IMG/VR virus record: IMGVR_UViG_3300026519_000410
Span: 1-24,025 of that record
Length of the DNA: 24,025 nucleotides
Source: a virus
Strand: one strand, 5' to 3'
Below, one piece after another: positions 3,153 through 21,571 of this stretch (positions are counted from its first letter, which is position 1; the number at the start of each line of letters is the position of its first letter). A program made the position numbers and the translations under genes. The notes beneath the pieces are model-generated. The model worked only from the letters and a program-made list of their open reading frames with translations. It did not search any database and was not told where the DNA came from.

Positions 3153-5501
3153 ATGGCATCCGCACGCGGCATCCGAGCAGGCGCAGCCTACATCGAGCTC
3201 TACGCCAACGACAACAAGCTTGTCCGTGGGCTCAATCGCGCTCAGAAACGCCTCAAAGCCTTTGGTTCGTCTGTGCAGCGGATCGGCGCACGATTGACCG
3301 GCATCGGCACTGGGTTGGCTGCAGGTTTTGCGATCTCAACACGGGTCTTCGCGGGCTTCGACGATCGGATGCGTCAGGTGCGAGCCGTGACGGGGGCGAC
3401 CGAAGCCCAGTTCCAGTCCCTACGCGAGGAAGCCAAACGCCTCGGCCGGACAACCTCGTTCACTGCTGGGCAAGTCGCTGGAGCGATGACCGAGCTGGGT
3501 CGAGCAGGGTTCAAGCCCGAGGCGATCCTGACGAGTACGGAGGCGGTGCTGGCGCTGGCCCGCGCGACAAGCACCGAACTCCCACGAGCCACCGAAATCG
3601 CCGGGGCCGCCTTGCGTGGGTTCGCATTGCCCGTCGATCAGATGGCCCGCGTGACTGATGTGCTCACGGCCACCGCCAACGGCAGCGCCCAGACACTCGA
3701 AGACTTGTTCGAGGCCATGAAGCCCGTCGCACCGATAGCCAACGAAGCTGGTGCGAGTATCGAGGAGACGGCCGCCGCAATTGCGGTGCTGGCCAACAAC
3801 GGCATCAAGGGTTCACTCGCAGGCAACGCGCTGGCCCGGGCGTACAAGAACCTGTCCAACGAATCCAGGCAGGCCGAGCTGCGGAAGATCGGTATCGAAG
3901 CCGTCGATGCGCAGGGCAATCTTCGCCCGCTCGCCGACATTCTCAACGACCTGGCCAAGGCGACCAAAGGTCTCGGCTCGGCCCAGCGGCTGTCGATATT
4001 CGAGACCTTGTTCGGACGCGGCCAAGCCGCCGCCCTCAAACTCGCATCGTCGGCCGAGGCGTTCGATGCGTTGCAAGACCAGATCAGGAACTCTGCGGGG
4101 CTCGCGGTCAAGACGGCTGAGGAGATGGACGCGGGGATCGGTGGTTCGTTCCGCAAATTGCTCTCCGCCGTCGAGGGCATCGCCATTGCCATCGGCGAGG
4201 CCATCCAGAAGCCGGTCCGCCGGGCGGCCGACGCGATCACCAAGATCTCCGGTTGGATCACCAACCTCATCAATCAGAATCGCCAGCTCGTGGTCACGAT
4301 CCTCAAACTGACCGCCGTTGTGATCGGGGTCGGTATCGCGTTGGTCATTGCCGGGGTTGCGATCGTTGCCATCGGTGCTGTATTCGGTTCGCTCGCCGCG
4401 ATCATCACCGGCGTCGGCGTAGCGATCGGGATCATGGGTACGGTGCTCGCCGCGTTGCTCTCGCCGATCGGGCTGGTTGCCGTCGCGGTGATCGGTATCG
4501 GTGCTGCCATCCTGACCACCAGCGGTGCTGGCGGTGAAGCGTTGTCATGGCTCGGTGAACAGTTCGGCAAGCTCAAAGCAACCGTCACCAAGGTCGTCGG
4601 CGGGATGTCCGATGCGTTGGCTGCCGGGGATGTCGCACTGGCTGCCCAGATTCTCTGGCTTTCGCTCAAACTCATGTGGGAGAAGGGAATCGCGGCCATC
4701 AACGCCGCATGGCTCGAAGCCAAGCGGTTCTTCATTTCCACCGCCCAGCAGATGTGGTTCGGGGCGTTGGCTGCTGCCCAGATCGGCTTCCATGCCATCG
4801 AGGTCGCGTGGATCGAAACGACTTCGTTCCTCTCGAAGACCTGGACCAATTTCGCCAGCGGCTTCAAGAAGATCTGGGAGACGGCGACTTCGTTCGTTGC
4901 CAAGCGGATGCTGGAGATTCAGGGGCTGTTCGATTCATCGCTGGATGTGAAGGCCGCCAAGCAGGGCATCGACCAGCAACTTGAATCCCGGCTCAATGAG
5001 ATCGAATCGCAGGCCCAGCAAGCACTCACACAGCGCAATCAGAAACGGCAGCGTCAACGTGAGCAATCGGCCAGAGAGAACGAAGCCACGCTCGCCGAGA
5101 TCGGTCGGCAGTTCGACGAGGCCCAGAAGGCTCTCGACGACCGCACCAACACCAAGATCGAGCAGACGCAGCAGGCGCTCGATGAAGCCCGTCGTCAACT
5201 CGACGAAGCCATCGCCAAAGCTGCCAAGGAACGCAAGGACGCCCAGAACGCCGGGGCCGATGCCAACGCACCGGAATCGGCAGACAACCTCGTCGCCCGC
5301 ATCCAGAAACAACTCGCCGGGCTTGGCAGCACGCTCGGGCAATCAACCACCGTCCGGGGCACCTTCAACGCACTGGCCGTGCAGAGTCTCGCGGCCAGCG
5401 ACCCCGTGGCCGAACGCACCGCCAAGGCCAGCGAACAAACCGCCAAGAACACCAAACAACTTGTCACCGCCGCCCAGACCGGCGGCCTGACCTTCGCATA
5501 A
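3153..5501 (+). CDS. Phage tail tape measure protein (TP901 type)
   Basis: A 782-residue protein. Residues about 65-330 carry the TP901-type tape measure core (FDDRMRQVRAVTGATEAQF, a TSFTAGQVAGAMTELGRAGF segment and ASIEETAAAIAVLANNGIKG are characteristic). A long run of hydrophobic Gly/Ala/Val/Ile segments follows (about 378-452), then helices, and a charged coiled coil with many Gln/Glu/Arg (about 597-700). The protein fills the tail lumen, sets tail length and is ejected at infection. At about 0.15 nm per residue the tail would be near 115 nm. It begins 12 bases after the lipoprotein gene. It is the best functional anchor for calling this half a siphovirus-like tail module. Confidence 0.93.
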   Translation: MASARGIRAGAAYIELYANDNKLVRGLNRAQKRLKAFGSSVQRIGARLTGIGTGLAAGFAISTRVFAGFDDRMRQVRAVTGATEAQFQSLREEAKRLGRTTSFTAGQVAGAMTELGRAGFKPEAILTSTEAVLALARATSTELPRATEIAGAALRGFALPVDQMARVTDVLTATANGSAQTLEDLFEAMKPVAPIANEAGASIEETAAAIAVLANNGIKGSLAGNALARAYKNLSNESRQAELRKIGIEAVDAQGNLRPLADILNDLAKATKGLGSAQRLSIFETLFGRGQAAALKLASSAEAFDALQDQIRNSAGLAVKTAEEMDAGIGGSFRKLLSAVEGIAIAIGEAIQKPVRRAADAITKISGWITNLINQNRQLVVTILKLTAVVIGVGIALVIAGVAIVAIGAVFGSLAAIITGVGVAIGIMGTVLAALLSPIGLVAVAVIGIGAAILTTSGAGGEALSWLGEQFGKLKATVTKVVGGMSDALAAGDVALAAQILWLSLKLMWEKGIAAINAAWLEAKRFFISTAQQMWFGALAAAQIGFHAIEVAWIETTSFLSKTWTNFASGFKKIWETATSFVAKRMLEIQGLFDSSLDVKAAKQGIDQQLESRLNEIESQAQQALTQRNQKRQRQREQSARENEATLAEIGRQFDEAQKALDDRTNTKIEQTQQALDEARRQLDEAIAKAAKERKDAQNAGADANAPESADNLVARIQKQLAGLGSTLGQSTTVRGTFNALAVQSLAASDPVAERTAKASEQTAKNTKQLVTAAQTGGLTFA

Positions 5502-5525: not shown

Positions 5526-6335
5526 GTGCCCATCACGGTGACCGAAAAGTTTGAGAGCAGGCGATCGACCACGGGGGACAACCCGTCGGCTGAACTCGGC
5601 TACACCGTGCGCGGCACCGAAGACGATCTTGCGGCACGCACGGCGGTCGAATCCGCCAGCCCGACGACCTACGACAACCTGCCGCGTCAGGCGGTGGCCG
5701 TCGAACCTGTCGGCCCGGATCACTGGGACGCGACGGTGCGGTACGCACCCAACCAGTTGTCATCCCCACCTCAAACCGGCGAGAGCGTCTTCAGCTTCGA
5801 CACCGGCGGCGGCACGCAGCACATCACCCAGAGCAAAGCCACCGTCGGCACCTACGCCGCCTCGGGTTCGACCGCTCCGAACTTCCAGGGCGCGATTGGC
5901 GTGACAGCAGACAGTGTCAACGGTGTGGACATCACCGTGCCCGTCTACCAGTTTTCCGAGACGCACTACCTGCCCGCATCGCAGGTCACGACTGCGTACA
6001 AGGGCACGCTGTTCAACCTCACCGGCAAGGTCAACAACGGCTCGTTCCGTGGCTTTGCTGTGGGCGAACTGCTTTTCCTCGGCGCGACCGGCTCACGCCG
6101 CGGCACCGGAGCAGACGACGACTGGGAGATCACCTTTCGCTTCGCAGCCAGCCCCAATGTGACGGGTTTGTCAGTCGGCCCGATCACCGGCATCAACAAG
6201 AAAGGGTGGGAGTACCTCTGGGTGCGCTACGCCGACGCCGAGGACACCGGCTCGGGCACGATCGTCAAACAACCCATCGCAGCGTATGTCGAACGGGTCT
6301 ACGACGATGGGAACTTCGGAGGGCTCGGGATATGA
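5526..6335 (+). CDS. Phage tail-module protein of unknown function
   Basis: A 269-residue protein starting at GTG 5526, with GAAAGGA 10 bases upstream. It is predicted to be mostly beta strand: many short Thr/Val/Gly strands, a central YQFSETHYLP motif and a C-terminal EYLWVRY region. No signal peptide, membrane segment or Cys is evident. It follows the tape measure gene, where distal tail, tail-tip and baseplate genes normally lie, so a structural role at the tail tip is inferred. I do not recognise the family. It overlaps the next gene by ATGA. Confidence 0.65.
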   Translation: MPITVTEKFESRRSTTGDNPSAELGYTVRGTEDDLAARTAVESASPTTYDNLPRQAVAVEPVGPDHWDATVRYAPNQLSSPPQTGESVFSFDTGGGTQHITQSKATVGTYAASGSTAPNFQGAIGVTADSVNGVDITVPVYQFSETHYLPASQVTTAYKGTLFNLTGKVNNGSFRGFAVGELLFLGATGSRRGTGADDDWEITFRFAASPNVTGLSVGPITGINKKGWEYLWVRYADAEDTGSGTIVKQPIAAYVERVYDDGNFGGLGI

Positions 6336-7366
6336 GCGGCGATGCCTTCACGAAAGTCCGAACCGGCCAGCCGCTGGTCATCCCCGCGCGTGCGTACAAC
6401 GCCTTCGTCGATGCAGCCATCGATCATCAATCGCGCGAGCGCAGCACGACGGGCGACCCTCGACCAGATCAGTCGCATCGCGGCATCGTGCTCGTCCGCA
6501 ACGACACACCCGACGAACTGCCCGCCTACCACGCACTGGCGATCGCTGGTCCGCTCATCGAACCGGGTGACGGCGATCAGGAGCGGACCTTTCAGGGACG
6601 CACGCCATTGATCGGTGAACTGGCGACCGAGGAGTCGCCGCCGTTGTCGTTCGTAATTGCTCAACAGACGATCGAACCCGGCGGGCTCGGGCGGTGCGTG
6701 CTCTCCGGCACCACGCCCGCCAAGGTCACGGTCATCGACGAGAGCGACACGACCTGCGAACTCACCGCCGACGAGACGGTGCTGACGACTTCACCGCTGG
6801 GCGGCGCGCCGATCCTCTGGAAGGAAGAAGGCACCGGCGAGAAGTGGGCGGTGATCGAACTCGGCCGCCCGTCGCTCGGGCGCATCACCGCCGTGCTTGG
6901 CGAAGGTCAACTCATCCCGACCGAAGCCAACCGCTGGCGCTACCCGTGGGTCGAAGCCCGCCTCGACGGCGACCCAGGCAGCGAGACCTACCTGCGCTAT
7001 GTGCCGGTTCCCGACGGGCTCTCATCGCAAGGAACCGGCGGCGGTGAAGACCCGGCCCGCATGGCGATCAACCGCTTCGAAGCGCACCACTGCGACGACT
7101 CCTTTCCGGGCACCGGCTTCGAGGGCTTGCTCGGTGTGGGGCCAGTGTGCGATCTGCCCGGCGTGCTGCACAACTGCCCGCCCGCGCGGTCGCTCGAAAC
7201 CCGACTCGCACCGATCCCGATCGGCGTCGCGGTGCAACTGACTTGCGAGCGCGACACGAAGGGCAACCCGGTGTGGGTCTTCGAGGCGATGAGCTGCGTC
7301 GAGATCGCCGACCCGGCCGACGGCGACCGGAAGTTCAATCTGCTGGCAGCGGGAGGTGGCGGGTGA
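6332..7366 (+). CDS. Phage tail-module protein of unknown function
   Basis: A 344-residue protein starting at ATG 6332 in an ATGA overlap. The frame is open upstream, but that stretch is inside the previous gene. The N-terminal VRTGQPLVIPARAYNAFVDA segment is a helix of a kind I associate with phage tail-tip genes. The middle is strand-rich (residues about 45-200), and the C-terminal third has five scattered cysteines (HHCDDS, PVCDLP, HNCPP, TCERD, MSCVE) before a Gly-rich end. The clustered Cys could bind metal or form disulfides. No enzymatic motif is seen. Function is inferred only from position between the tape measure gene and the modification genes. Confidence 0.6.
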   Translation: MSGDAFTKVRTGQPLVIPARAYNAFVDAAIDHQSRERSTTGDPRPDQSHRGIVLVRNDTPDELPAYHALAIAGPLIEPGDGDQERTFQGRTPLIGELATEESPPLSFVIAQQTIEPGGLGRCVLSGTTPAKVTVIDESDTTCELTADETVLTTSPLGGAPILWKEEGTGEKWAVIELGRPSLGRITAVLGEGQLIPTEANRWRYPWVEARLDGDPGSETYLRYVPVPDGLSSQGTGGGEDPARMAINRFEAHHCDDSFPGTGFEGLLGVGPVCDLPGVLHNCPPARSLETRLAPIPIGVAVQLTCERDTKGNPVWVFEAMSCVEIADPADGDRKFNLLAAGGGG

Positions 7367-7926
7367 CCGATGCCCTCGCCCAACAACGCGCCCACGAACG
7401 CAGCAAGTATGTCGAGCTGGTATCGCGTCCGGGTTCGTCGTACGGCTCGACCAACCACGGCAAACACGCCGTCCCGATCGTGGTGCGATGGAAGCCGCGA
7501 TTGGTCGTGGACTTTGGTTGCGGTCGCAACGACTTCATCCATTACCTCCGCCGACTCGGTTTCGACGGCCTCGGCATCGATTTCGCCTTCCCCGAGGCCG
7601 ACATCGACAGACCTATGCACGACACCGGGCTACTTGATGATGTCGCCGATGTCGTGACGAGTTTCGATGCGCTCGAGCACCTGCTGCCGCAGGATGTGAA
7701 CCCGGTGCTCGACGAGATGCGCCGCGTGGCTCGCCCCAAAGCGTGGTTCTGCTTCTCGATCTCCACGCGCCCGAGCCGGATCACTGTGCGAGGCGAGAAC
7801 CTCCACCCGACCGTGCGACCGCTTCGCTGGTGGCTCGACCGCATCGCCCGCGTCGGCATTGTCAACAACGCACGCACCGAGGGCCGCTACATCACCGGCA
7901 GGTTCCGAGTGGAGGGCTGCCCATGA
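7363..7926 (+). CDS. Class I SAM-dependent methyltransferase
   Basis: A 187-residue protein starting at GTG 7363, overlapping the previous stop as GTGA. Motif I is VVDFGCGRN (residues 48-56, the SAM-binding glycine loop). Asp73 in GIDF could contact the SAM ribose. A motif IV-like TSFDALEHL (99-107) and a following RVARPKAWFCFSIS strand fit the methyltransferase-11 type. The target is not evident: it lacks DNA methylase NPPY/DPPY motifs, so a small molecule, sugar or protein is more likely than DNA. It is coupled by ATGA to the DUF115-like gene, which suggests that the two act on the same substrate. Confidence 0.8.
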   Translation: MTDALAQQRAHERSKYVELVSRPGSSYGSTNHGKHAVPIVVRWKPRLVVDFGCGRNDFIHYLRRLGFDGLGIDFAFPEADIDRPMHDTGLLDDVADVVTSFDALEHLLPQDVNPVLDEMRRVARPKAWFCFSISTRPSRITVRGENLHPTVRPLRWWLDRIARVGIVNNARTEGRYITGRFRVEGCP

Positions 7927-8843
7927 ACCGCCCGAACCAATCCGACATCATCGCTCTCCAGCACGGCCTCAAGAACCGAGCCCCCGCCCGCAACGGGCTG
8001 CGTCTCTACACCGCCGACTTCGATTCCGTTTCGATGGCCAACTTCTACCGAGGTCGGTCCGCGTTCCTGATGCTGTCGGGTCCGTCGCTGAACCAACTCG
8101 ATCTTTCGCTCTTGAACCAACGCGGCATCGTCACGATGGGCGTCAACAACGCCTGGACGATCCACCGACCAACCTTCTGGACCTGCGTCGATGATCCCGG
8201 CCGATTCATCGACACCGGCTGGAAGGACCCCGGCATCCTCAAGTTCGTGCCGGTGTGCCATCGCGTCCGCAAACTGCGCATCCAACTCCCCGACGGCACA
8301 TTGAAACCCAGCGCCTTCCATGTCAGCCAGATGCCCAGCGTCTTGTTCTACCGCCGCAGCAATCACTTCGATCACCAGCGCTTCCTCACCAGCGACACGG
8401 TGCCGTGGGGCAACGAGGGCAAGCACGCGGATTCGCTCGGCATCAAGGGCAAACGCAGCGTTATGCTCGCTGCCCTTCGCCTGTTGCACCACCTCGGTTT
8501 CCGAACGGTCTACCTGCTCGGCTGCGACTTCAAGATGGCCACTGACCGCAAGTACGCCTTCGACGAAACGCGCGAGGCGGCCGCCATCCGACACAACAAC
8601 GCGCTCTACGACGCATTGAGCCGACGCTTCGAGGCGTTGCTGCCGCACTTCGAGAAGCACAGGTTCCGTGTGGTCAACTGTTCGCCGGGTAGTGCGCTGT
8701 CAGTGTTCGAGCGGATGCGTTACGAGGATGCCATCGCCGCCGCATCGGCCGAGTGCGCCAAGCCCGTCCGCACGCAGGGCTGGTACACACCCGCCGACAA
8801 GCCCGCGAACAAACCGAAGCAACACACGGAGGCCAACGCATGA
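7923..8843 (+). CDS. DUF115 / sialyltransferase-like (Rossmann) protein
   Basis: A 306-residue protein starting at ATG 7923 (ATGA overlap). The N-terminal part has FLMLSGPSLNQLDLSLL (residues 48-64) followed by GIVTMGVNNAW. This S-G-P-S-L loop plus a strand ending in N-N is the hallmark of DUF115 (MptE-like) proteins and of CstI-type sialyltransferases, where it binds the nucleotide or CMP-sugar. A second matching element is VYLLGCDFKM near residues 196-205. The family acts on flagellin or surface glycans in several bacteria. Next to a methyltransferase and a Ser-rich protein, a role in decorating a virion or surface protein is plausible but inferred. The C-terminal 30 residues are Lys/Pro-rich and probably disordered. 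Confidence 0.62.
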   Translation: MNRPNQSDIIALQHGLKNRAPARNGLRLYTADFDSVSMANFYRGRSAFLMLSGPSLNQLDLSLLNQRGIVTMGVNNAWTIHRPTFWTCVDDPGRFIDTGWKDPGILKFVPVCHRVRKLRIQLPDGTLKPSAFHVSQMPSVLFYRRSNHFDHQRFLTSDTVPWGNEGKHADSLGIKGKRSVMLAALRLLHHLGFRTVYLLGCDFKMATDRKYAFDETREAAAIRHNNALYDALSRRFEALLPHFEKHRFRVVNCSPGSALSVFERMRYEDAIAAASAECAKPVRTQGWYTPADKPANKPKQHTEANA

Positions 8844-10267
8844 GCGAGCCGACGCGCTACTACCTCTTCCTGCCCGTCTGGGCCACCGGTCGAGCCCCGG
8901 ACGGCGGCGGCTCGAGCGAGTTCTCCACGCCGACCGAATCCGTGTCGTCGATGAGCAGCAGCACCGAAAGCACGATGCCCTCGAGTTCGACCGAGACCGA
9001 CAGCTACACCACGCCCAGTTCGACCAACACCGAGAGTTTCTCGACGCCGAGCTCGTCATCGAGTTCATCGTCGAGCAGTTCGTCCAGCCCATCTTCGAGC
9101 ATGTCGTCGATCCAATCGAGCACCGAAGGTAGTGTTTCGTCGAGCGGCGGTTCAACTGGTGGGTCGAGCAGTGGTTCGACTGGCGGTTCGAGCACGCCGT
9201 CATCAACTGCCAGCTCACAGATGAGTTCCGCTGTCAGTTCAACCGACTCCGGCCCCGGTTCGTCCGCGGGCTCGTCCGGACCCGGTTCATCGGGACCGGG
9301 TTCGTCAGGCGGCGGTTCTTCGGGAGGAGGTTCGAGCGGCGGTGGCTCGTCGGGTGGCGGCTCATCCGGTGGTGGCTCAAGCGGCGGGTCATCCAACGCA
9401 TCCAGCTCGTCGGCTTCGAGTTCGTCGAGCAGTTCATCAAGCGGGTCTTCCAGCGGCTCATCGAGCGGCTCAAGCAGCGGCAGCTCCGGCGGCTCATCTG
9501 GCGGATCAAGCGGCGGTTCAAGTGGGGGTTCCGGTTCCAACTGCTTCCTCTTCGGCACGCTCGTCCATGTCACCCCGACCCGGCGCGTCCCGATCGAATC
9601 GCTCCAGCCGGGCGACCAAATCCTCTCGATGGCCGTCCCCGGGCTCGAAGTCGATGCGCCCTTCCGCGCCCAGTACGACTGGCAATCCACCGAAGGCCTC
9701 GACGACGCCCGCATCCGTCAGGCAGTCGTCTCCCAAATCACCCTCGGCGAGCACGACGGCTTCTTCGTCATCAACAGCCGCATCAAGGCGACCTTCGAGC
9801 ACCCCTTCCTCATCCGCCGCGGCGATGCCTGGGGCTTCTGCTCCGCCGACCTGCTCCGCATCGGCGACATGCTCGTCACGCCCGACCTGGCTGAGGAACC
9901 CATCACGACCATTGAGCACATCCCCGGCCGCGTCCGCACCGCCTCGATCACCGTCCCCGGCACCAACACCTACCTCGCCGACGGGGCCTGGGTCCACAAC
10001 GACCTGCCCGGCCTCTCCGGCGGCATCGGCAACACCTCCGGCGGGTCAGGCTCAGGAAGCGGCAGCGGTTCAGGAAGTGGGTCCGGCTTCGGCAGCAGTT
10101 CCGGCAGCAAGTCCAGCGGCTCAAGCTTCGACAGCTCGTCCGGAAGCTCCTCCGGCGGCAGTTCGAGCGGTGGATCGTCCTCAGGAGGCTCATCCTCCTC
10201 CGACGGATCGAACCTGACCCAAGCGAGCAGTGCGATAAGCGGCTCGGGCAGCGACAACCAGAAGTAG
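8840..10267 (+). CDS. Ser/Gly-rich protein with an internal Hint (bacterial intein-like) domain
   Basis: A 475-residue protein starting at ATG 8840 (ATGA overlap). Residues 1-22 are ordinary. About 23-234 are almost only Ser, Thr and Gly with some Pro. Residues 235-387 are a Hint domain: Cys235 begins CFLFGTLVHV, with PIESLQPGDQIL next, then TFEHPFLI (the T-x-x-H block B element), and the end TYLADGAWVHN with His386-Asn387. Residues 388-475 are again Ser/Gly-rich. Because Asn387 is followed by Asp rather than Cys/Ser/Thr, this fits a bacterial intein-like (BIL) domain, which cleaves and may splice, better than a standard intein. There is no homing endonuclease insert. The low-complexity arms could be a fibre, adhesin or glycosylation substrate. 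It is the last gene of the tail module. Confidence 0.85.
   Translation: MSEPTRYYLFLPVWATGRAPDGGGSSEFSTPTESVSSMSSSTESTMPSSSTETDSYTTPSSTNTESFSTPSSSSSSSSSSSSSPSSSMSSIQSSTEGSVSSSGGSTGGSSSGSTGGSSTPSSTASSQMSSAVSSTDSGPGSSAGSSGPGSSGPGSSGGGSSGGGSSGGGSSGGGSSGGGSSGGSSNASSSSASSSSSSSSSGSSSGSSSGSSSGSSGGSSGGSSGGSSGGSGSNCFLFGTLVHVTPTRRVPIESLQPGDQILSMAVPGLEVDAPFRAQYDWQSTEGLDDARIRQAVVSQITLGEHDGFFVINSRIKATFEHPFLIRRGDAWGFCSADLLRIGDMLVTPDLAEEPITTIEHIPGRVRTASITVPGTNTYLADGAWVHNDLPGLSGGIGNTSGGSGSGSGSGSGSGSGFGSSSGSKSSGSSFDSSSGSSSGGSSSGGSSSGGSSSSDGSNLTQASSAISGSGSDNQK
9308..9382 (+). repeat. Five tandem 15-bp units coding GGGSS
   Basis: Five consecutive 15-base units each encode Gly-Gly-Gly-Ser-Ser, but use different codons (for example GGC GGC GGT TCT TCG versus GGA GGA GGT TCG AGC). 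The wider Ser/Gly-rich stretches at about 8906-9540 and 10016-10200 are similar without strict periodicity. Because the DNA units differ while the peptide is constant, the repeat appears to be kept at protein level. It is not a CRISPR or satellite repeat. Confidence 0.85.
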
Positions 10268-10686: not shown

Positions 10687-12334
<1,648 letters not shown>

Positions 12335-12345
<11 letters not shown>

Positions 12346-13435
12346 CCAGCCCAACTCCCCCGATTCCGGCCAGCTCCTGATCTACCACGACGGGGCAACA
12401 CGCCTCCAGGTCCGGCTCGAAGGCCGCACCGTCTGGCTCCCCCAACGCCTCATGGCCGACCTGTACCAAGTCTCGGTCAAGACCGTAAACGAGCACCTGA
12501 TAAACATTTACGCCGAGGGCGAACTCGACCGTGAGGCAACTATCCGGAGTTTCCGGATAGTTCAAATCGAGGGGAAACGCGAGGTCGCCCGCTCGATCGA
12601 CCACTACAACCTTGACGCCATTCTCGCCGTCGGCTACCGAGTCCGCTCGGCCCGGGGCACGATCTTCCGCCAGTGGGCCACCGCCCAGCTCCGCGATCTG
12701 CTCGTCAAGGGTTTCGTCCTCGATGACGAACGCCTCAAAGAAGGCCGTACGATCGGGGCTGATTACTTCGACGAGCTCCTCGAACGCATCCGCGACATCC
12801 GCGCCTCCGAGCGGCTGTTCTACCAAAAGATCACCGACATCTTCGCCACCAGTATCGACTACGACCCCAACGCCGAACTCTGCCAGACCTTCTTCGCCAC
12901 CGTCCAGAACAAGCTCCACTGGGCGATCCACGGCCACACCGCAGCCGAAATCATCCAACAGCGAGCCGATGCCGCCCAACCCAACATGGGGCTCACCACC
13001 TGGAAGAACGCCCCCTCCGGCCCCATCCGCAAGGGCGATGTCGCTGTCGCCAAGAACTACCTCACCGAAGAGGAAATCCGCGAACTCAACCGGATCGTCT
13101 CGATGTATCTGGACTACGCCGAGGACCAGGCCAGCCGTCGCAAGCCGATGAACATGGCCGACTGGATCGCCAAACTTGATGCCTTCCTCGAGTTCAACGA
13201 GCGAAACATCCTCACCCACGCGGGGAGCATCTCCCACGAACTCGCCAGAAAGCACGCCCGCGCCGAGTTTGCCAAGCACGAGGAAGAACGCCGCCGGCTC
13301 GAAGCCGCACAGCCGACGAGCGATTTTGACAAGGCCATCGAGGAAGTAAAGCAGATCGAGTCGACGCCAAAGAAAACCCGCAGCAGCAAGAAGAAGACCA
13401 CTCGGAAGCGCAAGCCGAAGGAGGGCGGCTCATGA
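12335..13435 (+). CDS. rhuM: RhuM-family protein inserted in the hsd operon
   Basis: A 366-residue protein starting at ATG 12335, inside the end of hsdM, with GGAGG 9 bases upstream. The N-terminal part ([20 protein letters not shown], then [11 protein letters not shown] and a [21 protein letters not shown] segment) is the diagnostic RhuM domain, resembling phage antirepressor/KilA-type DNA-binding modules. The C-terminal half is helical and the last 60 residues are highly charged (Lys/Arg repeats). RhuM was first named in a Salmonella pathogenicity island. Its biochemical function is not settled, and it is often found with type I restriction genes, as here. A regulatory or phage-sensing role is possible. 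Confidence 0.88.
12538..12562 (+). repeat. Perfect 11-bp hairpin inside rhuM
   Basis: AACTATCCGGA (12538-12548) and TCCGGATAGTT (12552-12562) are exact inverted repeats around a 3-base loop (GTT). The hairpin lies about 205 bases into the coding sequence, where the protein reads ATIRSFRIV. No T-run follows, so it is not a normal terminator. In RNA it would be a stable stem that could slow ribosomes or polymerase. Confidence 0.75.
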
Positions 13436-13521
13436 ACGCACCAAGCCGCGCACGGAGAGCCGAGGTCTGCACACTCGACAACACCATCCAGCAGAATCTG
13501 GAGGCTCTCGATTATGGCTAA
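13432..13521 (+). CDS. 29-codon ORF carrying a copy of the HsdM C-terminus
   Basis: Starts at ATG 13432 in an ATGA overlap with the rhuM stop and ends at TAA 13519-13521, just past the ATG of the next gene (13514). Its last part, LDNTIQQNLEALDYG, repeats the HsdM end [16 protein letters not shown]. The first 14 residues ([14 protein letters not shown]) are not HsdM-like. The simplest reading is a remnant of an hsdM 3' end kept because it contains the ribosome binding site and coupling signal for the following gene. It may be translated, but probably matters as a coupler rather than as a peptide. Confidence 0.55.
   Translation: MNAPSRARRAEVCTLDNTIQQNLEALDYG
13474..13516 (+). repeat. Direct repeat, copy 2: remnant of hsdM 3' end
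   Basis: Second copy of the 43-base segment at 12295-12337, with 39 identities and the ATG of the downstream gene in exactly the same place. It contains its own GGAGG (13500-13504). Recombination between the two copies would remove rhuM precisely and leave hsdM intact, with a slightly different last few codons. Confidence 0.85.
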
Positions 13522-14191
13522 GAAAAAGACGACTCGACCGCAACGATCGAATAATGAGATTCGCCATCTCATGCTCCAATATTTCTACGACCGAAACAAG
13601 AACGCCACCAGTGCTCGTGGGAAAAAGGGGTCGGCTGTTAAGATCAGTGATATTAAAAAGGAACTCAAAGCAGCGCATCAACTTACTCAACAGGAAGTTC
13701 AGAGCAATCTGACTTATCTTATCAGCCAAGGTTGGGTCGAGGAAGACACTGTAGAGAAGTCATTTACTGCACCAAGCGGTACGGTTGTTCCCTCCTCAAC
13801 TAGCTTTTTCAAGATCACTGCTCCGGGCATCGATAAGATCGAGGGTCCTGGAGAATTTACAATGCCAAAATTTCACGGTATCAACATCAATGCCACTGGC
13901 CAGAACATCATCACACTTGGAGACGGCAACCAGATCAATGCGCAGTTCTCAGAATTGGGCGAAGCCCTAGTGGAACTGCGCGATGCGATCACGAAATCTG
14001 AATCGCCCGAGCCGGTGAAGATGTCGTTCGTGGCTGACATTGACACCATTCAGTCACAACTCGCGAAGCCTGAACCAAACCACAGCATCATTGCTTCCGC
14101 ATGGGAAAGCGTGAAAGTTGCCGCAACCATCGGGAGTTGTGCGGGGCTCGTCCAGCGCATAGGTGATCTGATCGGAGGACTGCCCTTATGA
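13514..14191 (+). CDS. Winged-helix protein of unknown function with a GDGN motif
   Basis: A 225-residue protein starting at ATG 13514, using GGAGG in the hsdM-tail repeat. After a basic start, residues about 15-110 look like a winged-helix DNA-binding domain: LMLQYFYDRN, a second helix with ISDIKKELK, LTQQEVQSNLTYLISQGWVE as recognition-type helices, and FFKITAPGIDKIEGP as wing and last helix. A strand-rich stretch follows (about 117-138) with GININATGQNIITLGDGNQI. The C-terminal part is helical and ends in a hydrophobic segment (VAATIGSCAGLVQRIGDLIG). The gene looks visibly more AT-rich than hsdM or rhuM, suggesting separate acquisition. The family is not recognised. Position between hsdM and hsdS suggests a regulator or sensor linked to restriction. 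Confidence 0.72.
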   Translation: MAKKKTTRPQRSNNEIRHLMLQYFYDRNKNATSARGKKGSAVKISDIKKELKAAHQLTQQEVQSNLTYLISQGWVEEDTVEKSFTAPSGTVVPSSTSFFKITAPGIDKIEGPGEFTMPKFHGININATGQNIITLGDGNQINAQFSELGEALVELRDAITKSESPEPVKMSFVADIDTIQSQLAKPEPNHSIIASAWESVKVAATIGSCAGLVQRIGDLIGGLPL

Positions 14192-14220
14192 ATGAGGAGG
14201 TGCTGGGCCATGTTGAATAA
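14188..14220 (+). CDS. 10-residue coupling ORF before hsdS
   Basis: ATG 14188 overlaps the previous stop (ATGA) and the frame ends at TAA 14218-14220, spanning the hsdS start at 14210. The peptide (MNEEVLGHVE) carries no recognisable feature. The same arrangement occurs at 13432-13521 and 16023-16097, which supports a role in passing ribosomes to the next start. As a protein it is doubtful. Confidence 0.3.
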   Translation: MNEEVLGHVE

Positions 14221-15520
14221 CGGAACACGCATCTCCGTTCAATCGCTGATTGACTCTGGCGAACTCGTCATCAATGACGGGTATCGCGCTAAGAACATCG
14301 AACTGGCCACGCATGGAATCCCGTTCGCCCGAGCCCAAAACATCAAGGACGGCTTCCACTTCAACGGTGCAGATCGCTTTCCTGAAGAAGACCTGGGCCG
14401 TGTCGGCATCAAGATCAGTCAACCGGGCGATGTAGTCTTTACCTCGAAGGGGACGGTGGGTCGCTTCGCGCTGGTACGCCCGGGTACTCCGCGTTTTGTC
14501 TACGCACCGCAGCTGTGCTTCTGGCGGTCGTTGAACCCAGACCGGATCGACCCCAACTGGCTCTACTACTGGATGAACTCGCGGGATTTCTTCAACCAGT
14601 TCAAGAGCGTATCGGGCCAGACCGACATGGCCGAGTATGTGAGCTTGCGGGATCAGCGGGCGATGCACATCACTTTACCGGATATCCCCACCCAGCGTCG
14701 CATCGCTTCGATCCTCGGCTCTTTGGACGACAAGATCGAGTTGAATCGGCGGATGAACCGGACGCTCGAGCGGATGGCCCAGGCGTTGTTCAAGTCGTGG
14801 TTCATCGACTTCGACCCCACCTGCGCCAAAGCCGCCGGCCGCGACCCCGGCCTCCCCGCCCCCCTCGCCGCCCTCTTCCCCGATCGCCTCGAAGACTCCG
14901 AACTCGGCCAAATCCCGAAGGGGTGGGAGGTGAAGCCACTTGACAAGATCGCACACTACCTGAATGGTTTAGCCTGCCAGAAACACCCGCCAATCGAAGG
15001 CGAGAACTCCCTGCCCGTGATCAAAATCCGCGAGCTGCGGCAAGGCATCACGGCCAACTCCAATCGTGCCAATCTCCATGTGAAGCCCAAGTACTTCGTC
15101 GATGACGGTGACATCCTGTTTTCATGGTCCGGCAGCCTGCTGGTCACGATCTGGTGCAACGGCCGAGGCATCCTGAACCAGCATGTCTTCAAGGTCACTT
15201 CATCGGAGTATCCGAAGTGGTACTACTACCACGCGACGAAGCACCATCTCGAAGAGTTCCAACGCATCGCAGCCGACAAGGCCACAACGATGGGACATAT
15301 CCAGCGTCACCATTTGGCCGACGCCAAACTCGCTGTCCCACCCATCCCACTCATGGATCGTGCAACAGAGATCATCGGAGCGACACTCGATCGCCGAATC
15401 ACCGCGTTGAAGCAAGCCCGGACACTTGGGCTGATGCGCGACACCCTTCTCCCCAAACTCCTGAGCGGCGAGCTCGAAGTCCCCGAGGCCGAGGAACTGG
15501 TTGAGGAGGTGGTGAGATGA
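14210..15520 (+). CDS. hsdS: Type I restriction-modification specificity subunit (HsdS)
   Basis: A 436-residue protein. The start at ATG 14210 is preferred over ATG 14192 because GAGGAGG (14194-14200) sits 9 bases upstream of it. Two target recognition domains (about 10-150 and 240-365) are each followed by a conserved helix: the central one from about residue 160 (QRRIASILGSLDDKIELNRR, then LFKSWFIDFDP) and the C-terminal one with TLGLMRDTLLPKLLSGEL. Each recognition domain should read one half of a split DNA target. The DNA target cannot be predicted from sequence by eye. Length and layout are those of a complete HsdS. The end overlaps the phosphatase gene by ATGA. Confidence 0.95.
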   Translation: MLNNGTRISVQSLIDSGELVINDGYRAKNIELATHGIPFARAQNIKDGFHFNGADRFPEEDLGRVGIKISQPGDVVFTSKGTVGRFALVRPGTPRFVYAPQLCFWRSLNPDRIDPNWLYYWMNSRDFFNQFKSVSGQTDMAEYVSLRDQRAMHITLPDIPTQRRIASILGSLDDKIELNRRMNRTLERMAQALFKSWFIDFDPTCAKAAGRDPGLPAPLAALFPDRLEDSELGQIPKGWEVKPLDKIAHYLNGLACQKHPPIEGENSLPVIKIRELRQGITANSNRANLHVKPKYFVDDGDILFSWSGSLLVTIWCNGRGILNQHVFKVTSSEYPKWYYYHATKHHLEEFQRIAADKATTMGHIQRHHLADAKLAVPPIPLMDRATEIIGATLDRRITALKQARTLGLMRDTLLPKLLSGELEVPEAEELVEEVVR

Positions 15521-16026
15521 TTGAAGTTTCCAACAATCTGTTTATCGGCAGTGAGGCTGATTACGAAACGATCGTCAAACGCGAGGGCGGCTGGCATGTC
15601 GTTCATGCGTGCAAGGAACCATATCATCGGAAGCTTCTGGGCTATACCGGACGATCTGCTCCAAAGACCCATCCCGAATATCTTATCGCTGTTCGCGGTG
15701 ATCGATTGTTCTTGAATCTCATTGACGCCGCCGACCCGGCCTATATCCCCAAAGAGATTATTGATGCAGCGCTTGGTTTCGTCGATACGGCTCTCCAATC
15801 CGGTGGCCGTGTGCTGGTTCATTGCAATCAAGGTGAATCACGATCTCCTTCGATCGGGCTGCTTTATCTTGCTGTTCACACAAAGCTTCTTCCCATCACC
15901 TCGCTGGCTCATGCAGAAACTGAGTTCAGGAAGTTGTATCCAAGCTACAACCCCAAGGGAGGCATGAGGGGTTTTCTCCTCAAACACTGGGATCACTACA
16001 CACAGAACAATCGAGGGGAAGCATGA
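15517..16026 (+). CDS. Dual-specificity-type protein phosphatase
   Basis: A 169-residue protein starting at ATG 15517 (ATGA overlap with hsdS). The active site HCNQGESRS (residues 102-110) matches HC-x5-R-[ST] of Cys-based phosphatases, with Cys103 as nucleophile and Arg109 binding phosphate. Asp70 or Asp73 (IDAADP), about 30 residues upstream, is the likely general acid. FIGSEADY near the start is also typical of compact dual-specificity phosphatases. It would remove phosphate from Tyr/Ser/Thr of a protein, or from another phosphorylated substrate such as RNA 5' ends, as some family members do. It lies between hsdS and the RloC-like gene and is more AT-rich than hsdM, suggesting later entry. 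Confidence 0.88.
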   Translation: MIEVSNNLFIGSEADYETIVKREGGWHVVHACKEPYHRKLLGYTGRSAPKTHPEYLIAVRGDRLFLNLIDAADPAYIPKEIIDAALGFVDTALQSGGRVLVHCNQGESRSPSIGLLYLAVHTKLLPITSLAHAETEFRKLYPSYNPKGGMRGFLLKHWDHYTQNNRGEA

Positions 16027-16097
16027 AGACGCTGCGCCAATGCTTTTACACACTCTTCGTGAGAGTGATCGAGACTGCGTCTGTGGAGGTGGTGTGA
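16023..16097 (+). CDS. 24-residue coupling ORF between phosphatase and RloC-like gene
   Basis: ATG 16023 overlaps the phosphatase stop (ATGA) and TGA 16095-16097 shares one base with the next ATG (TGATG). It exactly bridges the gap and contains the next gene's ribosome binding site (GGAGGT, 16085-16090). The peptide MKTLRQCFYTLFVRVIETAS (first 20 residues) could form one amphipathic or weakly hydrophobic helix. A coupling leader is likelier than a functional protein, but a tiny peptide cannot be excluded. Confidence 0.4.
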   Translation: MKTLRQCFYTLFVRVIETASVEVV

Positions 16098-18382
16098 TGC
16101 CTATCGACCGCATCTCTCGGCTGCGTGGCTACGGCGTGTTCCGCGATTTCTCGTGGCCCACCAACCTCACCGACTTCGGGCGGTACAACTTGATCTACGG
16201 CTGGAATGGTTCGGGAAAAACAACCCTGAGTCGGCTGCTCCGTGATATCGAGCATCGCCGCACTCCAACGATGGAAGGCGAAGTCACACTTCGGATCGAT
16301 GGACACGAGATCAAGGGAGATGATTTCCCACAGTCCACGCTGCAGATTCGAGTGTTCAATCGGGAGTATGTCAACGAGAGCATCTTCCCGATTGGCGGCG
16401 GCGATGTTCCGCCGATCTTCGTGGTGGGAAAGGACAGCGTCGAGAAGCAGAAAGAAGCAGACAAGCTCAGGACTGAGTGTGGGACGAAGGAGGGGGAGTT
16501 CCAAAACGCAACGACGACGCAGAGGCGCACCGAAACGGAGTTTGAAAAGCACTGTACTGATCGCGCGAAGGTGATCAAGGACATGCTTCGGGCATCGGGT
16601 GAAAACGCATACAACAACTACAACAAGACCGACTACCAAGGGCGTGCGCAGAAGATGGCAACCGATGGGGACGCAGCTGCCCACCGACTCGACGAATCGG
16701 CCCGGGACAAACTCATTGCACAACACCGCGCGACACCAAAGGCGAAGGTGCCGTTGGTGGCTTTCACGCTCCCCGACCTCAAGGGGCTGGCAGATTCAGT
16801 GCAAGGCTTGCTGGGCACGACGGTCACCTCCTCAGCAATTCAGGCGTTGAAGGATGACTCCGAGCTCGCCGAGTGGGTCCGCGACGGCCTTGGATTGCAC
16901 AAAGATCACAAGGCGAACAAGTGTCTGTTCTGCGAGCAGCCGTTGCCAGAAGGTCGGCTGGCAGCTCTCGATGCACATTTCAACGCTGAATACGAGCGAC
17001 TCCTGAAATCGATCAATGATCAGATTCAGGCTCTGGAGACGACCCGAAAACAGGCGGATGACCTTCAGATTCCTGATCGTGCCGTGTTCTACGACGATCT
17101 CTCCGATGACTACGACGCTGCTGAGAAGACGCATCGAGATGCTCTCGCAACAGTCCGTTCATTCATTGGCACCTTGATTGAGGCGCTGAATGGGAAGAAA
17201 GCTCAGCCGTTCAAGGCTTCTTCACTGACCGTGCCAGTGCCTTCTGTTGACGCAAATGCCGTTGAATGCGTGAACGAAGTCATCCGTAGTCACAACAAGG
17301 CCTCCGATGACTTTGCCAGTCGAGTCAATACTGCACGAGACAAGCTGGCTTTGGACATGATCGCTGAGACCTTGGATGAGTATGTTCAGCTGCGGGATGC
17401 CGTACAGACAGCTTTGACCGCGATCAAACCCATTCAGGATGGGATCGAACAACTCAAAGCCAAGGTCACTGAGATTGAGCGGGAGATCCGGGAACACCAG
17501 CAGCCCGCAGAAGAGTTGAATGAGGATCTGAAACGCTATCTCGGGCACGGCGACATTCAGTTGGCCATCAAGGACACGGGTTACAGCATCACGAGGCACG
17601 GCAAGCCCGCTCTGATGCTCAGTGAGGGGGAGATGACGGCGATTGCACTGCTGTACTTCCTGAAGTCACTCAATGGGCGAGACTTTGACCCTCCGAATGG
17701 TGTTGTCGTGCTCGATGACCCTGTGTCCAGCCTTGACGCCAACGCCATGCACTTGGCGTTCAGCCTGATACGGGCCCGTACGGCAGACGCAGGTCAAATC
17801 TTCGTGCTCACACACAACTTCGCGTTCTTCCGCCAGGTGCGCAACTGGCTGAGATATGTTCCCGGCCAGAGAAGCAAAGACAGCACCAAACAACCGGCGC
17901 GGTTCTTTATGCTCGAGTGCGTAGAACAAGACGGGAAGCGGGCATCGGCACTTCGCCCCCTAGATCAGTTGCTTTACAAGTACGAGTCCGAATATCACTT
18001 CCTCTTCGCCTCTGTGTATCGGTTTGCCCACGGGCCGACACCCGAAGGCCTAGAAGCATGCTATGGAATGCCGAATATTGCTCGACGCTTGCTGGAAAGC
18101 TTCTTGGCGTTTCGGCATCCCGATGCCTTCGACAATATGTGGGGAGCTCTGCGGGAGGTCGCCACCTCCGATGAAGCGAGGAAGGGTCGCATCCTGAATT
18201 TCGTGCAGACATACTCGCACGGTCCGGGGACGGGGCAACCAGAACATGATCCGTCGGTTCTCGGCGAGTCCAGATCGATCCTTCAGGAGATTCTGGCGCT
18301 GATCAAATCGGAAGACTCTGGCCATTACGCGGCGATGAAGAATCTCGTCGATCCTGCAGGAGACAAGGAAGGAACAGCATGA
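16097..18382 (+). CDS. RloC/PrrC-like AAA_13 ATPase, candidate anticodon nuclease
   Basis: A 761-residue SMC/Rad50-like ATPase. ATG 16097 is chosen because GGAGGT lies 6 bases upstream and the sequence before it is not family-like. Walker A is GWNGSGKTT (35-43). A long coiled-coil region is interrupted by CLFC (Cys276, Cys279), a zinc-hook-like Cys-x-x-Cys as in RloC. Signature LSEGE (508-512), Walker B VVVLDDP (Asp540/Asp541) and H-loop THN (572-574) follow. The C-terminal part has Arg663-x3-Glu667 and a late His708 in YSHG, resembling the Arg-Glu-His triad of PrrC/RloC. Those enzymes cut the tRNA anticodon loop when a linked type I restriction enzyme is blocked or DNA is damaged. Position inside the hsd operon supports this. 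The nuclease call is the uncertain part. Confidence 0.82.
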
Positions 18383-21300
18383 CCGGCTATCTCGACGAAT
18401 CCCAACTCGAGATCGCCACGGTCGATACCTTCCGTGAGCTCGGCTACGACTATGTCCACGGCCCACAGATCGCCCCGGACGGCGACGCTCCCGAGCGGGT
18501 GGACTACGGCCAGGTCATCCTCGCCGAGCGGCTCCGTGCGGCTCTCTGCCGCATCAATCCTGATGTGCCCGACGAGGCTATCAACGAGGCGGTTCGCATC
18601 GTTACCCGTGCCGACAGCCCGTCGCTGATCGTCAACAACCGCGCCTTCCATCGCCTGCTCACCGACGGCGTCGATGTCTCATGGAGAGACAACGGGCAGG
18701 AGCGGCACGGCAAGGTCTGGCTCATCGAACGCGACCCGGCCAAGGTGGACGACAACGAGTTCCTCGTGGTCAACCAGTTCACGGTGATCGAGGACAAGAG
18801 GAACCGCAGGCCGGATGTTGTGGTGTTTGTCAACGGGCTGCCGATGGCGGTGATCGAACTCAAGAACCCGGCGGAAGAGAAGACCACCCTTCGCCACGCG
18901 TTCAACCAGATCGAGACTTACAAGAACGACATCCCGTCGTTGTTTGCCACCAATGAGGCTGTGGTGATCTCGGACGGGTTCTCAGCCAAGATGGGTACGA
19001 TCACTGCTGGGTGGGATCGGTTCATGCCCTGGCGGACGGTGGACGGCCAGACGGTTGCCCCCGTCTCCCAAATCCAGCACGAAGTGCTCATCCGAGGCGT
19101 GTTCGAGAAGCACCGATTCCTCGACTACATCCTGCACTATGTCACCTTCGAGGATGACGGGAAGTCGATCGTCAAGAAGGCCGCGGCGTATCACCAGTAC
19201 TGGGCGGTCAACAAGGCGGTCGATACCACCGTTGAAGCGAGCCGACCGGACGGCGACAAGAAGGCCGGAGTCATCTGGCACACGCAGGGTTCGGGCAAGA
19301 GCCTCTCGATGGTGTTTTATGCCGGGAAGATCATCGCGCACCCGGCGATGGAGAACCCGACGCTTGTCATCATCACCGATCGGAACGATCTCGATGACCA
19401 ACTCTTCGGCACCTTCAGCATCAACAGCGAACTGCTCAGGCAAAAGCCCGTGCAGGCCGAGAGCCGGGAGCATCTCAAGAGTTTGTTGCAGGTCGCATCC
19501 GGGGGGGTGGTCTTTACGACGATGCAGAAGTTTGAGGGAGGAGAATCGCTCAGCGAACGCCGAAACATCGTGGTGATCGCTGATGAGGCACACAGAAGCC
19601 ATTATGGCTTTGAGGCCAAGATCAATCGCAAGACCGGCGAGAAGAAGTACGGCATGGCCAAGTACCTGCGCGATGCCATCCCCAATGCCTCGTTCATTGG
19701 TTTCACGGGCACGCCGCTGGAACTCGACGACAAGAGCACACCCGCGGTCTTTGGTGAATACATCGACAAATACGACATCCTGCGTGCGGTCGAGGACGGC
19801 ACGACTGTGCCGATCTATTACGAATCTCGCCTGGCCAAACTGGAGCTCAACGAGGAGGAGAAGCCAACCCTTGACCCCGAGTTCGAGGAGATCACCGAGG
19901 GCGAAGAGGAAAGCGATAAGCAGAAGCTCAAGACCAAATGGGCTGCTCTCGAGGCGATGGTTGGTTCGGAGAAACGCATCGGGATGGTGGCACAGGATAT
20001 CGTCGATCACTTCGAGAAACGACTCGAAGCGATGGACGGCAAGGCAATGGTTGTTTGCATGTCGCGGCGGATCTGTGTCGATCTCTACAACGCCATCATC
20101 AAACTACGCCCACAATGGCACGATGAAGACGAGGCGAAAGGTGCGATCAAGGTCGTCATGAGTGGCTCAGCGTCTGACGAACAGGCATGGCAGCCACACA
20201 TCCGTTCAAAAACGCAGCGAGAAGATATCGCCAAGCGATTCAAGGATGCTCAAGATTCGCTCCAACTGGTGATCGTCCGGGACATGTGGCTGACCGGCTT
20301 CGACTGTCCGAGCATGCACACAATGTATATCGACAAACCGATGGTTGGGCACAACCTGATGCAGGCCATCGCTCGGGTGAACCGCGTGTTCCGCGACAAG
20401 CCGGGCGGACTGGTCGTGGACTACCTTGGGATTGCTGATGCCCTCAAGAAAGCACTCCACACTTACACTGCAAGTGGCGGCAAGGGTAAGGCTGCAATTG
20501 ATCTCGACAAGGCCGTCGAAGTCATGATGGAGAAGTACGAGGTTGTGTGCGACATGTTGCATGGCTTCGACTATCAAGCGGTGCTTCAAGCCGAGCCAGC
20601 CAAGCGCATGTCCGGCATTGCCGAAGCGATGGAGTTCGTTCTTGGACTGGATGATGGTAAGCGCCGATATGTGCAGGCCGTCTCGGCTCTGTCAAAGGCC
20701 TTTGCACTTGCGATTCCACACGATCAAGCGATGGCGATCAGAGACGAGGTCGGGTTGTTCCAGGAGATCCGAACCGCGATCGTGAAAGTCACAGCGTCCG
20801 AGTCTCAACGCTCACCCGAAGATATCGAATCGGCGATTCGGCAGTTGGTGTCACGGGCGGTCTATCCCACCGAGGTCGTCGATATCTTCGCGGCTGCTGG
20901 GTTGAACAAACCAGATATTTCGATTCTCTCCGATGAGTTCCTCGCTGATGTCCGCAAGTTGCCACAGCGGAATCTTGCGCTGGAGTTGCTCAAGCGACTT
21001 ATTAATGATGATATCAAGACGCGGATGCGGAAGAATGTCGTGCAGGCCCGCTCGTTTGCCGAGATGCTCGAAGCGTCGATTCGGAAATACCAGAATCGAG
21101 CGATTGAAGCCGCACAGGTCATCGAGGAGTTGATCGCACTGGCCAAGGAGATGAGAGCCGCACAAACCCGGGGTGACGACCTCGGCCTCAATGAAGACGA
21201 AATTGCTTTCTACGACGCTTTGGCAGACAACGACAGTGCTCAAGAAGTCATCGGCGACGAGAAGTTGCGGCTTCTCGCCCAAGAACTGGTCGATCGTGTA

Positions 21301-21471
21301 AAACGAAATGTCACGATTGACTGGCAGGTTCGCGAGAACGCGAGGGCAAAGATCCGCGTGATGGTCAAGCGATTGTTGCGACAGTACGGATATCCCCCCG
21401 ATTTAGAACAGCGAGCAACAGAACTAGTCTTGGAGCAAGCCGAAGTCTTGTGTAAAGATTGGGCATCGTGA
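18379..21471 (+). CDS. hsdR: Type I restriction endonuclease subunit (HsdR)
   Basis: A 1030-residue motor and nuclease subunit starting at ATG 18379 (ATGA overlap). The N-terminal PD-(D/E)xK nuclease has Asp146 in RRPDVVVF, Glu160-Leu-Lys162 in VIELK, and the type I-specific Q-x3-Y motif (Gln177, Tyr181). Helicase motor 1 has Walker A QGSGKS (303-308) and Walker B DEAH (402-405), then GFTGTPLE (motif III). Motor 2 contains the [14 protein letters not shown] and [16 protein letters not shown] motifs. The C-terminal third is helical and should dock on HsdM. The enzyme translocates DNA from unmethylated targets and cuts at a distance. No frameshift or missing catalytic residue was seen. Confidence 0.96.
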
Positions 21472-21528
21472 TCGGATAAGGATTGCAGCATGCCATTGAA
21501 ATCGGCTTCTGGAAAATGAAAACTTGCC

Positions 21529-21543
21529 AATGCCCGTGGCATT
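21529..21543 (+). repeat. Hairpin between hsdR and the DUF262 gene
   Basis: AATGCC (21529-21534) and GGCATT (21538-21543) form a perfect 6-bp inverted repeat around CGT, in the 100-base gap after hsdR. There is no T-run, so it is a poor terminator. It could be an operator for the DUF262 gene or a weak transcript stem. The gap itself shows that the next gene is not coupled to the hsd operon. Confidence 0.35.
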
Positions 21544-21571
21544 CGGATCGATAGAAGAGTGAGATTATGAG

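Follow-up and report, generated by a model that had tools for sequence, protein, structure and literature searches.

The 24,025-nucleotide stretch of virus DNA analyzed here (IMG/VR record IMGVR_UViG_3300026519_000410, positions 1–24,025, referred to as the window) raises the question of what a Hint domain, the fold of inteins and bacterial intein-like (BIL) domains, would do within a Ser/Gly-rich arm encoded behind phage tail genes. On balance, the product of 8840–10267 is regarded as a flexible arm protein of temperate siphophages of Planctomycetota, mostly Phycisphaerales, with a self-processing Hint domain resembling that of A-type BILs. The arm is probably displayed on the virion, a placement taken from the gene order of the tail operon and from the fusion to a tail-operon protein seen in one of two locus architectures (type II). 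A self-processing structural protein, as envisaged by the initial annotation, is supported as likely by these comparisons of sequences and loci.

The record is best interpreted as part of a temperate planctomycete siphophage whose tail operon is closed by the arm gene, since tail genes lie upstream (for the tape measure, the tail tube and a neck or tail-completion protein, along with two conserved genes whose products have no known relatives) and since close relatives occur in other viral contigs and in metagenome-assembled genomes (MAGs), nearly all of them from Phycisphaerales or other Planctomycetota. The position at the end of the tail operon had been recognized before and is borne out by synteny. 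The arm gene is preceded by:

3153–5501, plus strand: tape measure protein (profile matches).
5526–6335, plus strand: conserved tail-operon protein, marker of the phage family, found in at least 567 IMG/VR contigs.
6332–7366, plus strand: tail-operon protein of 344 residues, whose N-terminal domain is fused to a Ser/Gly-Hint arm in type II loci.
7363–7926, plus strand: methyltransferase, present in type I and absent from type II loci (profile matches, comparison of loci).
7923–8843, plus strand: sialyltransferase-like/MptE-like protein, directly upstream of the arm gene in type I and absent from type II loci.

The 5526–6335 protein has no match among GenBank phages. For the 344-residue protein only a mediocre model was obtained (pLDDT 69.5), the fold of which weakly matches capsid structures of phages FCWL1 and T1 (best E 3.7e-4), probably decoration proteins; searches with PHROGs and PDB profiles gave no useful match, and it is called a tail protein here on account of gene order. 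Members of the phage family are also found in contigs assigned to other phyla, namely Nevskiales MAG PRO7 (L032, L036 and L038), Vicinamibacteraceae MAG L048 and Alphaproteobacteria MAG L051, labels which are likely due to mis-binning and possibly to a wider host range.

In type I loci the tail genes are followed by the separate 344-residue protein, the methyltransferase, the sialyltransferase-like protein and the arm protein. In type II loci, a minority of about 11 in 70, the first 150–190 residues of a 344-residue-type protein lead straight into the Ser/Gly arm and the Hint domain, and these loci lack the genes for the methyltransferase and the sialyltransferase-like protein. The Hint-plus-arm unit is hence borne by two different N-terminal parts, one of which is a tail-operon protein, and in all complete members Ser/Gly arms flank the Hint domain on both sides. 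In L033 and L035 the 344-residue-type domain is divided between two genes in a row, which end near 9546 and which both bear a Ser/Gly-Hint-Ser/Gly arm of their own.

The arm gene and its protein are laid out as follows:

8840–10267, plus strand: arm protein with embedded Hint domain, 475 residues (open reading frame, relatives).
8855–8890, plus strand: N-terminal signature RYYLFLPVWATG, residues 6–17, common to type I relatives (alignment of relatives).
8891–9538, plus strand: N-terminal Ser/Gly/Thr-rich arm, residues 18–233 (sequence, repeats).
9539–9541, plus strand: Asn234, occupying position −1, where 64 of 66 relatives have Asn (alignment).
9542–10000, plus strand: Hint domain, Cys235–Asn387, with TFEH at 318–321 and His386-Asn387 (profiles, model, alignment).
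10001–10264, plus strand: C-terminal Ser/Gly-rich arm, from Asp388 to the end, 88 residues (sequence).
10109–10129, plus strand: conserved KSSGSSF motif, Lys424–Phe430 (alignment of relatives).

The start codon at 8840 overlaps the stop codon of the preceding gene as ATGA. Upon re-reading of the sequence, the reading frame, strand and coordinates as well as Cys235 (nucleotides 9542–9544), T318-F-E-H321, His386-Asn387 (nucleotides 9995–10000) and Asp388 all agreed with the initial annotation, and so did the flanks of the Hint domain, which consist of Ser, Gly and Thr almost throughout on both sides. The signature at residues 6–17, which reads RYYLYIPVWATG in type I arm proteins, is by inference a possible anchor.

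Residues 235–387 are predicted to form a real Hint domain, and this identification is secure in view of the AlphaFold2 model, a family profile match to the BIL domain 2lwy and some 70 relatives with conserved catalytic residues. In profile searches the earlier assignment fared unevenly: the single-sequence Pfam matches were weak (Hint_2, E 0.0014; Intein_splicing, E 0.0016; PT-HINT, E 0.02) and all below the Pfam gathering cut-offs, while the isolated domain scored 16.2 bits with TIGR01443 (intein_Cterm), above the cut-off of 15.6 bits. The AlphaFold2 model (mean pLDDT 91.4) displays the horseshoe Hint fold on which that assignment had been made to depend. Among PDB structures it most closely resembles two BIL domains, 6y75 (E 1.4e-8) and 2lwy (E 1.7e-8, TM scores 0.74/0.83), and after these mini-inteins and Hedgehog, so that the Hint/BIL fold is corroborated by structure comparison; the family profile likewise retrieved 2lwy from the PDB sequences with an E-value of 1.5e-6.

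The relatives with conserved catalytic residues derive from IMG/VR and Planctomycetota MAGs, and residues were counted in 66 distinct ones. Cys1 and the block B motif T[FPGA]EH are invariant (66 of 66), and the domain ends with His-Asn in 65 sequences and with His-Asp in one, so that the A-type BIL combination of Cys1, TxxH and C-terminal His-Asn is found in 65 of 66. The dN/dS values are 0.07–0.19 relative to close relatives and 0.03–0.14 inside another clade, indicating that the domain evolves under strong purifying selection. Together, the conserved catalytic and junction residues and the low dN/dS values point to a working catalytic domain, and they make a dead domain unlikely.

The initial annotation had remarked on the missing nucleophile at the +1 position, which is confirmed by Asp388 here and by Asp in 55 of the 66 relatives, the others having Thr (four), Ala (two), Gln (two), Tyr, Asn or Ser (one each). 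Cys, Ser or Thr, as demanded of a class 1 intein at this position, is thus restricted to the five relatives with Thr or Ser. A canonical intein is ruled out by this lack of a +1 nucleophile and by the lack of a conserved insertion site. It is still conceivable, if unlikely, that the Hint domain excises itself in an intein-like manner and joins both Ser/Gly arms into one continuous arm. The two flanking arms are alike in composition, Hint-less relatives with one continuous arm exist, and A-type BILs are reported to be capable of some ligation even where the +1 nucleophile is missing (Dassa 2004, Aranko 2013, cited in PMC7664689 and PMC7765530). However, the +1 residue is Asp in the great majority of relatives, and the Hint-less arms bear other domains and no KSSGSS motif, hence they are not simply the spliced form.

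With the A-type BILs (Amitai 2003, Dassa 2004; 2lwy) the arm Hint domains share the fold, the N-terminal Cys, TxxH and the C-terminal His-Asn, furthermore a non-nucleophilic, variable +1 residue, the absence of an endonuclease and flanks that are of low complexity or variable. The +1 position, though mostly free of Cys, Ser and Thr, is less variable than the family name implies. In contrast to A-type BILs, −1 Asn and +1 Asp are strongly conserved, and the domain resides in arms of phage tail operons, accompanied by the KSSGSSF motif. The His seen in block F of BILs and inteins, 2lwy among them, is replaced here by an invariant Asn. As block F differs and activity is predicted from sequence, the arm Hint domain is described here as one that would work like an A-type BIL rather than as a member of that class.

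For such a domain the following course may be proposed. The N-terminal part would anchor the arm on the particle. Asn387, aided by His386, would cyclize and thereby cut off the C-terminal arm, a step which may be slow because of the Asn in block F. The N-terminal arm would pass to Cys235 in a thioester linkage, the resolution of which by water or an amine would free the Hint domain and leave a Ser/Gly arm with a processed end. The established activity of A-type BILs is mainly to cut at both of their ends, ligation being minor (PMC7765530, PMC7664689). In type II proteins the N-terminal arm would be expected to stay behind, as it is joined to the tail-operon protein, with the Hint domain and the C-terminal arm leaving; release of the N-terminal arm, as first suggested, is therefore not expected in these loci. 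The cut might serve to mature the arm, to shed it or to attach it covalently.

Plain cleavage does not account for the KSSGSS motif or for the conservation of Asn at −1, two features which like cassette exchange and the Hint-less homologues go beyond the initial annotation. Asn precedes Cys1 in nearly all relatives, yet it makes up only 0.5% of the arm composition. In inteins thioester cleavage tends to be slower when Asn is at −1, and by analogy its conservation would fit controlled rather than immediate release. A Lys within K-S-S-G-S-S-F or a near variant is found in all intact C-terminal arms, 17–54 residues past His-Asn (the C-terminal end of L012 is truncated), and is the only conserved Lys of this arm, situated in a flexible linker. 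Across 60 loci of the wider phage family, motif and Hint domain are both present in 40 and both absent from 20; loose K matches in the Hint-less L225 and L234 proved upon inspection of the sequences to be different from KSSGSSF. Perfect as it is in these loci, the co-occurrence is suggestive and not a statistical proof, as only two changes on the tree, i.e. two independent events, are needed to produce it.

BIL and Hog Hint domains can transfer their N-terminal part onto nucleophiles. Accordingly, the Cys235 thioester might give the N-terminal arm to the KSSGSSF Lys or to an amine of a host or particle partner, resulting in a crosslink or tether. The confinement of the conserved Lys to loci with a Hint domain (40 of 40 versus 0 of 20) and the −1 Asn in 64 of 66 relatives speak for such a transfer, which nevertheless is quite unlikely, given that the association goes back to two events, the motif may have another purpose and the partner is hypothetical. 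Its more specific form, in which the thioester end of a particle-bound arm is passed to the KSSGSSF Lys of its own or a neighboring arm or to an amine of the host surface, leading to a crosslinked or cell-bound arm, is given a slightly lower chance still. If this is true, a phage structure for adhesion or assembly would make use of transfer chemistry of the Hedgehog kind.

The Hint domain seems to move between arms as a cassette. In pairs such as L069/L074 and L056/L078 the N-terminal parts are 85–90% and the 344-residue proteins 83–85% identical, the Hint domains just 52–57%, and the type I Hint domain of L038 clusters with a type II Hint domain from the same MAG (SH-aLRT 86). Hint-less relatives were compared at loci that have the 5526–6335 marker followed by a complete region. 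In L094, L096, L099, L101 and L109 a type I N-terminal part is present and a short segment replaces the Hint domain; the arms of L160, L163 and L169 carry a Cys-rich segment, those of L190, L227, L228, L233 and L234 another, distinct segment, and in L181, L192 and L226 a different C-terminal domain takes the place of Hint. The arm proteins of the latter three, possibly adhesins, contain a repeated N-terminal motif, RYLxRFVG...GVPVYALG. As these relatives hold other small domains on such arms, the arm seems to be a carrier on which small domains can be exchanged, Hint being one of several.

Both the cassette-like movement and the occupation of the same position by other small domains would be in keeping with a plain structural or binding head, or with the remnant of a selfish mini-intein, neither having a processing role in the particle. 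This is about as improbable as the covalent transfer, since the catalytic residues are retained though most positions change, dN/dS is low, the site lies in disordered arms and not in a conserved enzyme site, and the Hint domain is present in nearly every close relative with a complete region. The BIL-like self-processing arm remains the preferred reading.

Class 1 mini-inteins share the fold and the catalytic blocks A, B and G with the arm Hint domains, which differ in mostly lacking +1 Cys, Ser or Thr and in having no conserved enzyme insertion site. The Hedgehog C-terminal autoprocessing domain shares the fold and thioester formation on the N-terminal part, whereas the arm Hint domains have no sterol-recognition region and do have the Asn-cyclization end. 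The PT-HINT domains of polymorphic toxins (PMC3482391) likewise lie towards the C-terminal end of long proteins of the surface type, and PT-HINT is among the weak Pfam matches. Release of a C-terminal toxin upon target contact is nonetheless extremely improbable and was ruled out, as all C-terminal parts examined in the relatives are Ser/Gly-rich tails of 16–145 residues with no toxin domain; in addition, there is no adjoining immunity gene, and the genes behind the arm vary.

Hint domains in phage tail or virion proteins are also found in the tail clusters of Phage NCTB and the Erwinia alexandraviruses, annotated in GenBank as 'putative phage tail protein, contains intein domain' and 'virion structural protein', respectively. 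These are jumbo phages, and their Hint domains are only 27–29% identical and lie almost at the C-terminal end of proteins that are large or collagen-like. A literature search, covering few subscription journals, found no paper on Hint or BIL domains in phage virion or planctomycete phage proteins. The earlier statement that no example had been described thus holds for papers and has to be qualified for GenBank annotations: inteins, their bacterial relatives and Hint annotations in phage tail clusters are known, and for a Hint domain in a Ser/Gly viral arm no description was found. Elsewhere, L080:4854–8654 encodes a Hint domain with +1 Gly, embedded in Gly-rich sequence close to the N-terminal end of a protein resembling tail tip protein J (by eye), the Hint domain of L166:4001–4513 is 56% identical to it, and Ruminococcus phage NatCom_3870 (L083) encodes Hint-like domains at two places, annotated as hypothetical proteins.

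Behind the arm gene, at 10687–23668 of the window, lies a type I restriction-modification locus with HsdM, HsdS and HsdR, interleaved with genes for a PDC-S05-like protein, a DUSP-like phosphatase, a PDC-S06-like ATPase and a DUF262-like protein (Orf5/HEC-06). As type I restriction-modification genes occupy the corresponding place in L005, L022 and L047, it may be a variable cargo site. In the MAG loci L030, L035, L038 and L041, metal-efflux-like genes (CusA-, CusB- and P-type-ATPase-like, by eye) are found behind the arm gene. In the type II loci L018, L029, L033, L035 and L039, glycosyltransferase-like and sulfotransferase genes come next after the arm gene; in L018, L029, L033 and L039, adjoining the Ser-rich arms, a GT25-like glycosyltransferase is joined to a sulfotransferase domain. 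Together with the sialyltransferase-like gene upstream in type I loci, these downstream genes suggest a glycosylated arm, and glycosylation of capsid and tail proteins by the phages that make them is known (PMC12363180). The idea was set aside, as such neighboring genes may act on other targets.

Should the arm Hint domain prove active, its compactness and its unusual N|C...HN|D junction would also make it a tool for cleavage or ligation. What BIL domains do in nature is, to our knowledge, still poorly understood. In the present case the genomic place of a BIL-like domain is defined, its many relatives conserve the residues at both junctions, it is carried by two different proteins, and counterparts without Hint occur naturally. 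This set-up makes maturation, shedding and covalent attachment of a viral surface arm directly testable against each other.
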